64,000 nt of DNA, from positions 21,454,582 through 21,518,581 of the forward strand of contig NC_019864.2 in the NCBI RefSeq assembly GCF_002234675.1, given 5' to 3'. The notes under the pieces were generated by a model. It had not been told where the DNA came from. It ran no database searches and was given only the letters and a program-made list of their open reading frames with translations. Every line of letters begins with the position of its first letter. Within the stretch, counting starts at the first letter, position 1. The translations under genes were made by a program, and so were the position numbers. This DNA is from Oryzias latipes (lineage: Eukaryota > Chordata > Actinopteri > Beloniformes > Adrianichthyidae). Shown in pieces: positions 943 through 40,756 of this stretch.

Positions 943-3743
943 AACAACATTTCTCCAGCAGAGGTTTCCCAGTGGACCAACCACAGGGTGATGGAGTGGC
1001 TGCGATCGGTGGACCTCGCTGAGTACGCCCCCAACCTCAGAGGCAGCGGCGTCCACGGAGGGCTGATGGTGGGAAAGCCCTGGTTCCAGTTCCCGTCTCG
1101 AGCGTCCACTCTTCAACCGCTGATTTCTGGTCTGTCTGTTCAGGTTCTGGAGCCTCGGTTTAATGTGGAGACCATGGCCCTGCTGCTGAACATCCCCCCC
1201 AACAAGACCCTCCTGCGGCGCCACCTCGCAACACACTTCAGTTTGCTCATTGGTGCAGAGGCTCAACAGCTTAAACAGGAGTGTCTTGAGAACCCAGACT
1301 ACACCGTACTCACTGCCACCACTAAAGTCAAGGTAGTAATAGAAATGAAAAGAACCTGTAACTTGAAATTAGAAGTTCTTCTCAGCTTTGGTCATGAGTT
1401 TTTCTTAACCATCAAGGGAACAGAACAGAATACATATTTTAATTGCACTCAGAATTATAGCAAAAAAAATAATTAAAATAGTGGACTTTTTAATTTCTCG
1501 CTGAAATAGAAATAATGAGATCCTGTAACCTTTAATCTGTGTAGTGAGGTGTAGTCAGTTGGGCTTTATTGAAGCGTTGTCCAGAGGGGAACGGGTCAAG
1601 CAGATTGTATGTGAAGGCCTTCCTAATAAGGTCTTGTTTTTCCTGAGGCAGTGGGCTCTGGTTTTTACTGTTCAGAGAGGGGAGTAGACGGCTGACCTTG
1701 GTTTTTTGGATGGCATTTATGCCCCTCTGCACAGCTTTTGTTTTCAGCTGTGGAGCCTGCATACCACATCAGCAGACAGCAAGTCAGTGTGCAGTCCAGC
1801 AGGAGCTTGTTGTTCAAGTCGAAGTTTCTGCGGCTGGTTCTTCATCACAAAGGTTTTGTTGTTGATGGGGAGAGGGGCCGGAATTTCTGTCCCCTTAAAG
1901 TCTTTGACTGGCTTTCAGCTACTTAAATAACACCAGACTGGGAGTCTCAACCTCAAATCTGTAAACCAGTCTGGATTTTCTGGGCTCTAGCCACAGTGGT
2001 GTCATCTGCAAATTTGATGAAGGTGTAAAATGGAGAAAGATTATAGTTGCAGTTTTACTGTAGTGAGCTTAGCACACAGCCCAGAGGAACACCAGCAGAG
2101 AGGGGTGCTCATTCTTAAAGACCCATTTTAATCATCTTTTGATCTATTGTAACACTGTTCCCAGTGGTCTTTTAATAATGATTATTATTAAACTTTTAGT
2201 CAAAATCAAAAACCTGTCATTTTATAGGAAATAGTTTGTGCATGTCTCATTGTCTGTCCTCTCCACAAGCACATAGAATGATCTTCAGGTGGACAGTGTG
2301 TTTGATATTTAATTTTTTTTTCTCCTTCATACCAGCCAAAGAAGCTGCCATTTAGTAACTTTGGCAGTCTGAGGAAGAAGAAGCAGGATGAAAGTGAGGA
2401 GTACGTTTGTCCAATGGATGTGGAGATGCCAAAGGGACAAAGCTTCCAGAGAGGCTTTGAGCTCCAAATCTACGAAGATGACCTCGACAGGTTGGAACAG
2501 GTGGGCTACTTCAAATAAACTTAAAGGCCTTTTCTTCTTCTCACTCCCTTTCTTGTATTTTTTTGTCCTATTTTTCTTTTTATGGCATAGATTTGACCTA
2601 ATAATATTATCATCATCAGAATCACAATTGCTTCTATAATGGAATACTATATGATTCACTTTTTGACCTGATGTCGACCTTTGATTTATTTTTTCATAAG
2701 ATGGAGGACTCCGAGGGGACGGTGAGACAAATTGGGGCGTTTTCTGAGGGAATTCAAAACCTAACGGTAAGATGGGAGAATGAAATTCTCTCATCACAGA
2801 TTTCCTAACAATTTTTTCAGCAGATCTGTTAATCTTTCATAGTCTCTGCATGCATCATGCAAGAGCCAATCACACATGCTGTTGAGAATGACGACAACCT
2901 TTGTTTACTATAGTTTGCATTCAGAATTAAACGTAAAGCTAACAAACCTGGAACTTTGGAAGTGCTTTAGAGGAGGTTAGGTTGTTTATTTTGAATATAT
3001 TTTGGACATGGTTTTGACGTTGTCTTTTTTTTTGTTTTAAGATGTGTACGCTTTAACTCTTCATGTCGTACGTCACTCTTAGCATTAAATCCAGGACTGC
3101 TTAATTTAGCATAACTTTGAAGGGAAGTAAAGAATATTTTTTGTCTAAATGGAAATAAAGTCAGGTATGAAGGGGTTTATTTTTGTAAATGGCGTAGACT
3201 TATACAGCACTTTTCTACCTACAAGGCCCAAAGCGCTTTACAGTCACACACACATTCACACACTCGTGGCGGCTCCGCTGCAGAGCACTGGCGCCAACCT
3301 CCCTCCAGAGGCAGGGTAGGGTTCAGTGTCTTGCTCAAGGACACATCGACTCATGGGCGTGCAAGCCGGGAATCGAACCTGCAATCCTACGATCGTGGGT
3401 CGACCGCCCTACCGCTGCACCACGGCCAACCTTTGTCTGCATACTTTTGATCTTTCTCAGAAAACATTGAAACGATATGTTTTTCATTTTTGAAGTTATT
3501 GCCGTTAAATAAATTAAAAAATGTACTACTTGTAAATGAATTTGGGTTGTAATAAATAAATAAATGAATATCAACGATTGCCACAAAAACAAATTGTTGA
3601 GTAGTAAAAAAAAAAATGCCTGGACTAATTGCTGATTTTTGTTTTTTGTGTCTTATCAGAGCATGCTGAAAGACGATGAGTTCTTTAAGGAGGTTTCAAA
3701 CTCGCCAAACCTGAGTGTGACGGATGAAGACTCGAATGCTTGA
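943..3743 (+). CDS. ppfibp1: Liprin-beta (ppfibp1-like), C-terminal five coding exons, 5' truncated by window
   Basis: Liprin-beta is a scaffold of cell cortex and synapse that binds liprin-alpha and related partners through three SAM domains. The exons read 943-1068, 1144-1332, 2336-2500, 2701-2766 and 3660-3743, all phase 0, with GT-AG introns. The first two exons carry the last SAM domain (NNISPAEVSQW..., MEWLRSVDLAEYAP, MALLLNIPPNKTLLRRHL). The tail holds a basic patch (FGSLRKKK), EEYVCPM, an acidic DDLDRLEQMEDSEGTVRQIG stretch and the ending SVTDEDSNA. From memory, this tail resembles liprin-beta-1 more than beta-2, hence the symbol, and an a or b paralogue cannot be told. The N-terminal coiled coil and first SAM domains lie outside the window. 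The first intron here is only 75 bp and stays open in frame. Confidence 0.9.
2115..2262 (+). repeat. Truncated copy of the TTAAAG(A/T)CCC MITE family (copy A)
   Basis: This intronic stretch of the liprin gene begins TTAAAGACCCATTTTAATCA and continues with the CTTTTGATC and GTGGTCTTTTAAT blocks seen in the copies near 22.8, 25.2, 28.0 and 41.5 kb. The 3' part of the element is absent. It is on the same strand as copies B, C and E. Confidence 0.7.
3188..3427 (-). repeat. tRNA-derived SINE, minus orientation
   Basis: On the minus strand the right end reads as a tRNA-like head with an A box (GTGGTGCAGCGGTAGGG) and a B box (GGTTCGATTCC). The body contains the AAGCGCTTTACAGT and CACATTCACACAC words common in fish SINEs. 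It sits in the last intron of the liprin gene. The edges are approximate and I saw no clear target-site duplication. Confidence 0.8.
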
Positions 3744-11102: not shown

Positions 11103-11330
11103 TGACGCGCGTGCACACAACCCACGTGACTGCGGTGGTTCAATGAATGACGTAATTGTCCGGTAATGACGTCATCAGAAACATCACCCTTCCACATTTG
11201 AATTACCTCACACTATCCATGACCTGTTATGACAACAAAATACATGTTATGATGTCATTTTACATCACCGAATAAAGCTAAATACGTGTTATGATGTAAT
11301 TTTACGTCAGCAGTGAAGCTTTAAATATAC
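11103..11330 (+). promoter_or_regulatory. Candidate promoter with CRE-like site cluster and 42-bp tandem repeat
   Basis: An E-box CACGTG (11123-11128), a CRE-like TGACGTAA (11148-11155), a full palindromic CRE TGACGTCA (11167-11174) and TTACGTCA (11302-11309) lie within 190 bp. Two similar units beginning TGTTATGATGT start at 11245 and 11287, a period of 42 bp. An AT-rich TTTAAATATA near 11320 could be a TATA-like element about 140 bp before the ATG. The site matches are direct, while ATF/CREB control of the gene is inferred. Confidence 0.5.
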
Positions 11331-11458
11331 GTTGAGTTTCCCAGGAGAAACATCTCAAAGTTCACGATAGAAAGTCAAAAACCGTTGATCAACTGTGTTC
11401 TAAGATTAAATCTTTAAAACTGACAGACGATCTGAAGAAGAACAGACTTAAAGAAAAA

Positions 11459-13993
11459 ATGTCAGGAAAAGGAAATGGAAAAACTGCAGCCTTTGAGCTG
11501 AAAGTAGGCCATGAGTTGGTTGGAAATAAGGGGGTCTATATAGTTGAGGAATTCCTGGGAGAAGGAAGTTTTGGAAAAGTGGCTAAATGTAGTAAATTTT
11601 GGAGTCTGGAAGTCTACGCTGTTAAAATTATGAAAAAATCCAGAGCAGGACAGAAAGAGTTTGAAACGATGAAACTCATCCAAGACCTGGATCCTGATGA
11701 GAACCACTTGATTAAGATGTACGAATGCTTCACACATAGAAGTATGACTTGTATAGTGTACGAGCTCTTGGAGGTAAACTTTCATGATTCCTTGATAAAT
11801 GAGCAGCAGCTGGTCCCTTTATGTTTTATCAGAGTCATTGCTCAGCAGTTGCTCAAGGCTCTCAAAGCGCTCAAGAGAATTGGTGTGGCACACTGCGACA
11901 TAAAATTGGACAACATTATGTTTGCGGATCTAAATGTCATGAATGTAAAACTCATCGACTTTGGTCTGGCTGTGGAGACAAAGGAACTTTTAACAGAAAC
12001 CGATATCCAAGTAACTCCATTCAGAGCACCTGAAGTTATCCTGGGTCTCCCTTTAGATGAAAGCGTTGACATGTGGGCACTTGGCATGGTGTTGGCCTGT
12101 GTTTACAGTGGAAATTATCTCTTTCCATCAAGAACCGAATACGAAACAATACAAGCTATGGTGCAGATATTTGGTTTACCTGAAGCTGACGTTCTCCATA
12201 GGGCAAAGAACAAAGCAGCCTTTTTCACTAGGGACAATGGAGACTGGAGACTATGCACACCAGAAGAATACACCAAATCAACTGGGGTAGAAGTGAGACA
12301 CATGGACTATGTGATAGATTTTGATGCTATGACTGATCAACATCGGAATATGTATCAAATGCACGATGATGACGACCACAAAGCTTTCATTGCCCTTCTC
12401 AAGCGCATTCTGGAGGTCAATCCTCAACGCAGAATCACGCCGAGTCAAGCCCTCGAACACGACTTCATCACCATGAAGCACCTTGCAGGTAAAAGTAAGG
12501 CCGCGTATGCTGCTGGATGTAAAGGTGTCATGGGAAAGACCCCGCCGTCAGAAGGACAAGTAAATCCCTCAGCCTCTTCTAGTTCAAGCATGAGTGGATC
12601 CTTTAATCAAAGCCTGAAGTCATCAATGTCCAACAGGGAAATTGTAGACATGAGGGAAGTTCCTTCTGCTGGAAGTGCAGAAGAACAATCAAGTCACTCC
12701 AGCCTTGACAGCTCTGTCTCCTGTGAGAAACCCGTGTTTCAGGAGAATTTGGAAAAGACTGAAGATCTGCAGACAGACAAAGACCAGGCAAAAATGTCAA
12801 GAAAAGGAAGTAGAAAAACGGAAGCCTTTGAGCTGATGGAAGGCCATTATTTGGTGGGAAATCAGGGGATCTATAAGGTTCAGGAATTCCTGGGAGAAGG
12901 AAGTTTTGGAAAAGTGGCTAAATGCACTAAAGTGGGAAGTCAGGAAATGTATGCAATTAAAATCATAGCAAATGTCCAAGAAGGCAAGCAAGAGTTTGAA
13001 TCCATGAAACTAATCCAAGTTCTGGATCCTGATGAGAACCACTTGATGAAGATGTATGAGTGTTTCTCATTTCAAAATGTGATTTGCTTGGTGTATGAGA
13101 TCCTGGAAGAAAGCTTGGAAGATTTCTTGAACAAAAACGAATGCAAAGCGACACCTCTGACTTATGTCAGAGCTATTGCTCAGCAGATGTTTCAGGCTCT
13201 CAAAGCGCTCAAAAGTATTGGTGTGGTTCACTGCGACATAAAATTGGACAACATTATGTTTGCGGAAAAAAAATCTTTGAAATTCAAACTCATAGACTTT
13301 GGTGTGGCTGTAGGGAAAAGGGAACTTCCAATCGGAACCGAAATCCAAGCAATTCCATTCAGAGCACCTGAAGTTATCCTGGGTCTCCCTTTAGATGAAA
13401 GTGTTGACATGTGGGCTCTTGGAGTTAGTTTGGCAACTGTTTACTGTGGAAATTATCCTTTTCCGTATTATTATGACTATGAAACCATCAGAGCTATGGT
13501 GCAGATATTCGGGTTACCAGAAGAAGAACTTCTTTCTGCAGGACTAAACACTCTAGACTATTTCACTTGGGACAGCAGTGTAAACGGCTGGAGGCTGTAC
13601 ACAGCAGAGGAATATACCCAAAGAACAATGTCATATGTGAATGGGAATCATGTGATAAATCTTAACCAGATGACTGAGATTCATCGAAAGCAGTTTGACA
13701 TGTACGATGATGACGACCACAAAGCTTTTATTGACCTTCTCAAGCGCATGCTGGAAGTCAATCCTCAGCGCAGAATCACGCCGAGTCAAGCCCTCGAACA
13801 CGACTTCATCACCATGAAGCACCTTGCAGGAAAAAAGTACTATCAAGACGAAGACGTCATGGGAGACTGGCTGCTGGGACAAAGGAGAAGAACTTCTCCA
13901 CTGGTAAACACGGTTCTTGGAAAGTGTAGTAGCCACAAGTGTTTTAGGCGTGTTCTGAAGTTCTTTTGTGAACTTCTGCCTTATTATTGTTAA
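11459..13993 (+). CDS. Tandem double-domain HIPK/DYRK-like protein kinase, intronless
   Basis: One uninterrupted frame of 844 codons encodes two complete Ser/Thr-type kinase domains. Domain 1 has a glycine loop GEGSFG (residues 34-39), Lys56 in YAVK, HCDIKLDN (145-152), DFG (167-169) and FRAPE. Domain 2 repeats these at about 479-484, Lys501, Asp593 in HCDIKLDN, and DFG 613-615. MWALG and GLPLDESVD after FRAPE place both in the HIPK branch of the DYRK family. Catalytic residues look intact in both, but the tyrosines typical of HIPK activation loops are replaced (TETDIQVTPFRAPE and GTEIQAIPFRAPE). The second copy begins at Met446 with nearly the same start as the first, so a whole gene was duplicated and fused. 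A Ser-rich linker (about 345-445) joins the domains. The basic, Cys-containing tail is not recognised. Lack of introns suggests retroposition or membership of the fish-specific HIPK-like expansion. Substrates are unknown. Confidence 0.85.
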   Translation: MSGKGNGKTAAFELKVGHELVGNKGVYIVEEFLGEGSFGKVAKCSKFWSLEVYAVKIMKKSRAGQKEFETMKLIQDLDPDENHLIKMYECFTHRSMTCIVYELLEVNFHDSLINEQQLVPLCFIRVIAQQLLKALKALKRIGVAHCDIKLDNIMFADLNVMNVKLIDFGLAVETKELLTETDIQVTPFRAPEVILGLPLDESVDMWALGMVLACVYSGNYLFPSRTEYETIQAMVQIFGLPEADVLHRAKNKAAFFTRDNGDWRLCTPEEYTKSTGVEVRHMDYVIDFDAMTDQHRNMYQMHDDDDHKAFIALLKRILEVNPQRRITPSQALEHDFITMKHLAGKSKAAYAAGCKGVMGKTPPSEGQVNPSASSSSSMSGSFNQSLKSSMSNREIVDMREVPSAGSAEEQSSHSSLDSSVSCEKPVFQENLEKTEDLQTDKDQAKMSRKGSRKTEAFELMEGHYLVGNQGIYKVQEFLGEGSFGKVAKCTKVGSQEMYAIKIIANVQEGKQEFESMKLIQVLDPDENHLMKMYECFSFQNVICLVYEILEESLEDFLNKNECKATPLTYVRAIAQQMFQALKALKSIGVVHCDIKLDNIMFAEKKSLKFKLIDFGVAVGKRELPIGTEIQAIPFRAPEVILGLPLDESVDMWALGVSLATVYCGNYPFPYYYDYETIRAMVQIFGLPEEELLSAGLNTLDYFTWDSSVNGWRLYTAEEYTQRTMSYVNGNHVINLNQMTEIHRKQFDMYDDDDHKAFIDLLKRMLEVNPQRRITPSQALEHDFITMKHLAGKKYYQDEDVMGDWLLGQRRRTSPLVNTVLGKCSSHKCFRRVLKFFCELLPYYC

Positions 13994-14620
13994 ATTAGTT
14001 TGGGTTTTCTCCTGGAGCTCAGGTTTGCCCTAAAAAAAAAGTCACTTATTAATATTGTTGTTTTTTGTTAGAAGTGTAAAAATGAAAAATGTTTATTTCC
14101 ATTGCTTATTAATGTTGGTGTTTATTGTTAAAAGCGCAAAAATTAGAACTTTTTGTTGTTGTTATTTATGTTAAATTATATTTGGTTTTCTCCTGGAGCT
14201 CAGGTTTGCCCTTAAAAAAATCATTTATTATTATTGATGTTTATTGTTAAAAGTTCAAAAATTTGAACTTTTTGTTGTTATTTATGTTAAATTAGTTTGG
14301 GTTTTCTCCTGGAGCTCAGGTTTGCCATAAAAAAAATCTACATTGCTTAATAATATTGTTGCTTTTTGTCAAAAGTGTAAAAATTTAAACTTTATTTTTA
14401 GTTGTTAGTTATGTTAAATTGTGTGGGATTGTCCTGTGTTTTCTGTTTCAATTTTTTTTCGTATTTTATGACTATTATCTGCTTTTATGTTAGGCGCTTT
14501 GTGTTTTTAGCCAAAATGAAAGGCACTATACAAATCAATAAAGTTTGAAGTTTAAATTAGTTTGGGTTTTCTCCTGGAGCTCAGGTTTGCCCTAAAAAAA
14601 ACTCTTCATCACTTATTAAT
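13986..14620 (+). repeat. Diverged tandem repeat array beginning at the kinase stop codon
   Basis: The core TTTTCTCCTGGAGCTCAGG, followed by TTTGCC, occurs at 14005, 14186, 14302 and 14577. Each copy is preceded by TTAAATTA-like sequence and followed by a run of A and an AT-rich TTATTAATATTGTTG block. Spacing varies (181, 116, 275 bp). The first copy overlaps the end of the kinase ORF, so the array lies in its 3' UTR. AATAAA at about 14537-14542 is a plausible poly(A) signal inside the last spacer. Confidence 0.8.

Positions 14621-16098: not shown

Positions 16099-40756
<24,658 letters not shown>

Follow-up and report, generated by a model that had tools for sequence, protein, structure and literature searches.

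Two HIPK-like kinase domains in one intronless frame of Oryzias latipes and a putative family of poly-kinase genes

The two-kinase frame and its surroundings

Here we describe a kinase gene in the window, by which we mean the whole 64-kb stretch of Oryzias latipes DNA that was analysed (C6:21454582-21518581). The gene is a single 844-codon frame at 11459-13993 (+) that has no introns, starts with ATG and has its nearest upstream in-frame stop at 11333. The original prediction of two full HIPK-like kinase domains in this frame is confirmed by the open frame itself and by Pfam, which finds the full Pkinase profile (PF00069, positions 1-263 of 263) in each half. As predicted, the second half begins at Met446 (12794) with a start resembling the true one, and the glycine loop, the ATP-binding lysine, HCDIKLDN and DFG are all present in both halves, which are identical to each other at 225 of 349 residues (BLASTP E 2e-160) and at 78.5% of bases over 1061 nt. 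The lysine, HxD, DFG and APE expected of a full-length protein kinase domain are found in both halves. The features of the locus are given below, with L numbers denoting other places in the genome.

11148..11174 (+): two putative CRE-like matches (TGACGTMA) starting at 11148 and 11167, from a pattern scan
11320..11329 (+): TATA-like TTTAAATATA, 139 nt before the ATG; L012-L020 have the identical ten bases in their leaders
11459..12493 (+): first kinase unit (K1), residues 1-345; Pfam Pkinase 1.4e-46, HIPK2 224 bits, in a clade (100/99) with the first units of L012-L020
12002..12004 (+): codon for Asp182, which occupies the position of the HIPK activation-loop tyrosine in the alignment to HIPK2 chain 6p5s
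12489..12500 (+): donor-like GT sites at 12489 and 12495, the two best-scoring of the frame
12494..12793 (+): Ser-rich linker (23% Ser), residues 346-445; tail homology, last 45 nt leader-like, no indels or stops
12794..13834 (+): second kinase unit (K3 type), residues 446-792; Pfam Pkinase 1.3e-47, HIPK2 237 bits, in the K3 clade (99/98)
13340..13342 (+): codon for Glu628, at the activation-loop tyrosine place in the alignment to HIPK2
13835..13993 (+): C-terminal tail (52 residues) and stop, by comparison with L012-L014
13990..14651 (+): 3' region with repeat units of ~116 nt and an AATAAA-type signal at 14537

Among PDB sequences the best solved relatives of both units are HIPK2 and HIPK3, followed by DYRK1B (150 bits for K1 and 140 for K3), with no HIPK1 or HIPK4 chain among the matches listed. 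Over 339 aligned residues K1 shares 129 and K3 133 identities with HIPK2 (chain 6p5s), and K1 and K3 share 220 with each other. The proposed HIPK-like identity holds for the kinase domain, which is closest to HIPK, but does not extend to the rest of the frame. In contrast to HIPK1-3, which are DYRK-related CMGC kinases, the window gene has two kinase domains in one frame, is intronless and lacks the activation-loop tyrosine; outside its kinase units there are only the 100-residue linker and 52 residues, which, judged by length, leave no room for long N- and C-terminal regions. The C-terminus of HIPK1-3 is described, in the accessible text of PMC4353451, as carrying homeobox-interaction, autoinhibitory, PEST and YH regions. 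By comparison with L012-L014, one nucleotide is missing from the window copy after 13880 and an ancestral TGA is altered, so that the last 37 residues of this copy form a private, frameshifted C-terminus. An AlphaFold2 model of the 844 residues, run on the single sequence without an alignment, was uninformative (mean pLDDT 32.9).

The case for gene conversion between the halves is weak, with mixed silent-site clustering statistics: the longest run was matched in 3209 and the sum of squares in 395 of 10000 shuffles, and further statistics gave p 0.002-0.009 (variance) and p 0.017-0.107 (range). The longest identical stretch between the halves, 62 nt, was reached in 0 of 2000 shuffles and could be explained by amino-acid constraint alone.

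The flanks were copied along with the genes: DNA homology among the family copies takes in part of the 3' repeats and, on the upstream side, between 0.65 and 2.05 kb according to the copy. The ~116-nt repeats begin at the stop codon of the window gene; they are also present, differently arranged, behind L012-L021. There is no second HIPK-like locus elsewhere in the window. Downstream of the kinase gene, exons for Rpb2 domains 3, 6 and 7 lie at 28895-40102 (+), and we assign these to a gene for the second-largest RNA polymerase subunit; a SAM-domain exon lies at 943-1473 (+), and XendoU and RFX-BCD matches occur in other frames (150 of 293 frames scanned). Scans of the window with Rfam (gathering scores) and for tRNAs gave no matches.

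The gene family and the history of its units

A search of the genome (734 Mb in 25 contigs) matched the first half of the window gene (half A) in at least 118 places and the second (half B) in at least 106, remote kinase fragments included. We examined 41 places, namely 40 fetched stretches and the window, picked from the better matches rather than comprising all of them. Intact frames with two or three kinase units, of 797-1348 codons, occur at 12 of the 41: triples at L012, L013, L014, L020, L022 and L023, and doubles at the window gene, L017, L018, L019, L026 and L027. Two of the 14 multi-unit genes, L015 and L016, are broken. One-unit genes occupy 24 places (L021, L024, L025, L028, L029 and L032-L050, with L041 showing no DFG) and fragments three (L030, L031 and L051). 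The fusion had been taken for an event at the window locus, a reading that does not survive the finding of the same architecture, sometimes in triple form, in genes on C1, C6, C9, C21 and C22; on this sequence evidence, the window gene is best regarded as a member of an intronless poly-kinase gene family and not as a one-off. The one-unit frames L032-L050 lie on C1, C3, C7, C8, C11, C15 and C16. The L022 and L023 triples, at C22:22.34 and 22.36 Mb on opposite strands, are extended at the N-terminus by 40 residues that show homology to the window gene's 5' leader.

Three clades stand out in a tree built from 39 units and HIPK2. One (100/99) holds the first units of the window gene and of L012-L020, another (99/98) the K3-type units of the window gene, L012-L014 and L017-L020, and the last (99/96) the middle units of L012-L016; in the deeper pair L026/L027, instead, the two units fall together. 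Because the units of the window gene and L012-L020 cluster by type and not by gene, it was entire fused genes that were duplicated. The window gene itself is of the K1-K3 double type. In its sister triples L012, L013 and L014 the middle unit resembles K3 as far as nt 551-556 and K1 from there on, with an identical breakpoint in all three (informative sites 112:5 followed by 93:10 in L012, 107:7 by 93:16 in L013, and 116:9 by 84:10 in L014), and over its first 550 nt this unit clusters with the final units of L012-L014 to the exclusion of the window gene and C9 (99/97, midpoint-rooted). From the chimeric breakpoint and this grouping, the K1-K3 double is older than the L012-L014 triples, which were made by one recombination, most simply an unequal crossover. 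L020 gained its third unit separately, since its second and third units both sit within the C9 clade (100/100). A one-unit gene, L021 at C6:23.39 Mb, has a K3/K1 chimeric make-up like that of the triples' middle unit.

The linker appears to record how the units were joined. Over its first ~90 residues it is homologous to the C-terminal tail found in the single-kinase paralogs L028 and L029 (0 of 1000 shuffles; scores of 67 for the window linker and 76 for the L022 linker), and over its last 45 nt it is similar to the 5' leader, with agreement at 26-28 of 45 positions in five genes (0 of 2000 shuffles). The predicted likeness of the bases around both ATGs of the window gene is borne out over the 45 preceding positions, of which 28 agree, but fades further upstream. 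As the linker is made up of an old C-terminal tail and a leader-like end, a cut tail was probably joined to the leader of the next unit. The proposal that a complete gene was duplicated in tandem and fused after loss of its first stop is thus upheld as to tandem origin and in-frame fusion, but not as to a simple stop loss; the homologies, found in the window gene and in its relatives, make the fusion look old and shared. The end of the L026 linker is like that of the window linker at the DNA level (0 of 1000 shuffles), a likeness that the protein does not show (277 of 1000). Within the window, neither the 3' region nor the second tail nor upstream DNA matches the linker significantly. Linkers of the deeper relatives are 103, 146 and 55 residues long, compared with 100 in the window gene, and Thr-Pro is present in 14 of 20 linkers.

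One chain, two proteins or decay

Whether the two kinases form one protein depends on whether the linker is translated. Linker indels are absent from all seven comparisons within the close set, which are of overlapping pairs, and the adjoining 5' flanks of those pairs carry 4-9; the probability of finding none is 0.002-0.012 from two disjoint pairs. The 14 linkers of length 100 (10 distinct) contain no stop in frame 0, and 57 and 125 in the other frames. Nor does any of the 23 genome matches to the linker contain a stop; these represent one fragment at C1:26.71 Mb and 20 family linkers, two of which give a pair of matches apiece, and the 55-residue linkers of L026 and L027 lie outside this set. 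The internal start codon is ATC in K2 and K3 of L012, ATA in K2 of L014-L016 and absent in K2 and K3 of L022/L023, and the frames of all these genes run on through the lost start. A methionine is kept at unit residue 15, before the kinase domain, which would still allow internal initiation. Selection on the linker is less distinct: there is a modest synonymous excess, with a pooled p of 0.018 for frame 0 as compared with 0.31 and 0.61 for the other two, a codon-usage score is no better for frame 0 than for the other frames, and dN/dS is 0.35-0.41 for the window linker against those of L012, L013 and L014, with intervals reaching 0.85-1.07, and ~0.95 for L012 against L013, with an interval that includes 1. 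The linker without indels or stops, together with the internal starts lost in several relatives, favours one fused protein, and a single chain with two kinases is, from these patterns, probable.

The alternative of two separate proteins, in which a kinase of its own is started by ATG 12794 or by a second promoter and the linker merely happens to be open, we consider unlikely. It would account for the A at -3 at both ATGs, for the leader-like last 45 nt of the linker and for its unremarkable codon usage, and 83 open codons would arise by chance in 1.3-2.7% of cases, which is not extreme. However, relatives that have lost the internal ATG keep the frame, the linkers of the close set have no indel and none has a stop, and a pattern scan of the window linker found no TATAWA, TTTAAA or poly(A)-signal hexamer. 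The suggestion of a separate protein beginning at the second ATG is accordingly improbable as a rule for the family.

Alternative splicing, with a donor at 12489 or 12495 joining the first kinase to a distant exon and the second kinase skipped, is quite unlikely. Scored with a donor-site frequency table, the GT at 12489 stands at the 98th percentile of those in the window and just where the halves cease to be alike, but it is shared only with linker 1 of L022/L023. The site at 12495 (AGTAAGG) is kept in 16 of the 20 linker starts listed; the same bases, however, simply encode a conserved Ser-Lys, and they are lost in linker 2 of L014, linker 2 of L020 and L026/L027. No in-frame acceptor with more than 8/12 pyrimidines precedes the second kinase, and purifying selection on the K3-type units speaks against their being skipped. 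An intron confined to the linker was also considered and rejected, there being no convincing in-frame acceptor.

Most kinase units bear the marks of constraint. Sixteen of 20 dN/dS comparisons between units lie at 0.17-0.42; against L012, L013 and L014, the window gene gives 0.38-0.45 for K1 and 0.27-0.37 for K3, and its K1 against that of L017/L020 gives 0.74, with an interval up to 1.39. On these values the units are mostly under purifying selection, and their catalytic motifs are kept. A decaying family of segmental-duplication copies that drift without function is very unlikely for the same reason. Although two members are broken (L015, L016), three are fragments (L030, L031, L051) and dN/dS between the window halves (0.49, 0.36-0.69) is high for kinases, 12 frames are intact and the rough probability of encountering no stop without selection is 0.0008 for K1, 0.0012 for K3, 0.024 for the linker and 0.073 for K2. 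Neither window half decays faster, because 22 changes relative to HIPK2 are specific to the first and 18 to the second. An assembly artefact gluing two gene copies can be practically dismissed: family members are tandem and similar in places and can mislead assemblers, but the halves differ at 21% of aligned bases and junctions of the same kind recur at 20 linkers on C1, C6, C9, C21 and C22.

Kinase units without the activation-loop tyrosine and their relation to known systems

The catalytic lysine, the helix-C glutamate (position 67 in the HIPK2 alignment), the HxD aspartate, the asparagine and DFG are present in all 39 units, a set that includes the open units of broken genes. The catalytic-loop lysine is present in 37 of the 39 and is replaced by threonine in the second unit of L022 and L023; L013_K3 and L026_K2 have substitutions in the glycine loop and L022_K3 a two-residue gap near it. 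The HIPK activation-loop tyrosine occurs in none of the 39 units and in none of the 18 additional one-unit relatives whose loop could be read (one of 19 was unreadable), and because it is missing from all 18 readable one-unit loops in L032-L050, its loss probably predates the fusion. The equivalent position is E in 13 units, K in 9, D in 5, N in 5, R in 4, Q in 2 and V in 1. Given this variety, Asp182 and Glu628 as mimics of phosphotyrosine were rejected as a family rule. According to the sections available of PMC4353451, the tyrosine is autophosphorylated, occurs in all HIPKs and supports full activity, and HIPK Tyr-to-Phe mutants retain reduced activity, so that the poly-kinase heads may be active without it. 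Both heads are probably active.

K1 and K3 are fixed differently at 51 of 342 positions (six genes each), and by region, with borders that we set ourselves, the differences fall at 16 of the 51 positions in the CMGC-insert region, 15 of the 77 in the N-lobe and none of the 42 at the C-terminal end. This concentration in the CMGC insert and N-lobe fits different docking surfaces; whether K1 and K3 differ in substrates or docking partners we would put at even odds.

Taken together, we propose that these frames, with two or three HIPK-like kinases joined by linkers of 55-146 residues, most likely each encode one polypeptide, with a single mRNA and protein per gene. Each head would be an active Ser/Thr kinase without the HIPK/DYRK tyrosine-autophosphorylation switch, and the Ser-rich linker would be a flexible tether holding heads with different docking surfaces, which could act on one target complex or on each other. 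Such multi-head kinases would evolve by gain of units and by recombination inside kinase coding sequence. We give this explanation as a whole, a poly-kinase family of tethered multi-head kinases, a probability of about 0.76. The role of the linker as a tether, possibly itself a substrate given the Thr-Pro found in most linkers, is put forward tentatively. More speculative is the wider picture of a young modular poly-kinase family in an animal, in which the number (1, 2 or 3) and identity of units are recombined, tethered heads lack the tyrosine switch and K1 and K3 are kept distinct by selection. Copy turnover and dN/dS of up to 0.74 would fit conflict-driven evolution, a doubtful reading at present; fast turnover, if this picture holds, would be in keeping with an involvement in genetic conflict, whether in immunity or in the germ line.

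Proteins with more than one kinase domain are known from several systems. Plant tandem kinase proteins and obscurin/SPEG belong to other kinase families than HIPK. JAK, RSK/MSK and GCN2 have two kinase or kinase-like domains per chain, and these are old, fixed and mutually dissimilar, whereas the poly-kinase family is a recombining set of similar units. Two kinase domains per protein are reported, in the portions available of the papers, for wheat Yr15/WTK1 (PMC6170490) and vertebrate obscurin and SPEG (PMC7957886); the genes described here differ in having two to three similar units, with motifs kept and unit number variable.

Closer parallels come from fishes. In the accessible text, 30 of 40 DYRK kinases of fugu cluster apart (PMC3359783), 14 Hipk genes are among the new genes of flatfishes (PMC8618825), a HIPK/DYRK-like expansion is reported in yellow goosefish (PMC7729161), and the multiplication of fish HIPK genes is linked loosely to eye traits (PMC7729161, PMC8618825). 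These expansions resemble ours as lineage-specific multiplication, with many HIPK-like genes in one genome, and are probably the parent family of the poly-kinase genes. They differ in that the portions available (PMC3359783, PMC8618825, PMC7729161) describe expansion only and do not mention two or three kinases per gene; in the fugu text (PMC3359783), as far as it is available, 'two kinase domains' and 'tandem' occur 0 times. We found no description of double- or triple-kinase HIPK genes among the literature matches listed, which lie mostly outside subscription papers and bioRxiv preprints, and similar gene models may sit unremarked in protein databases. The HIPK expansion in fishes as such is already published.

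If chains of two or three tyrosine-free kinases are encoded, they would represent a different enzyme class, and fish HIPK genes may have been miscounted, misannotated or assigned to the wrong orthologs. The family also lets one follow how recombination assembles enzymes with several domains, and it provides a natural experiment on whether the tyrosine switch is dispensable for HIPK-type kinases. Two scans of viral contigs gave no viral relatives of the window kinases, and a scan of microbial genome contigs gave three remote bacterial matches at 28-32% identity.
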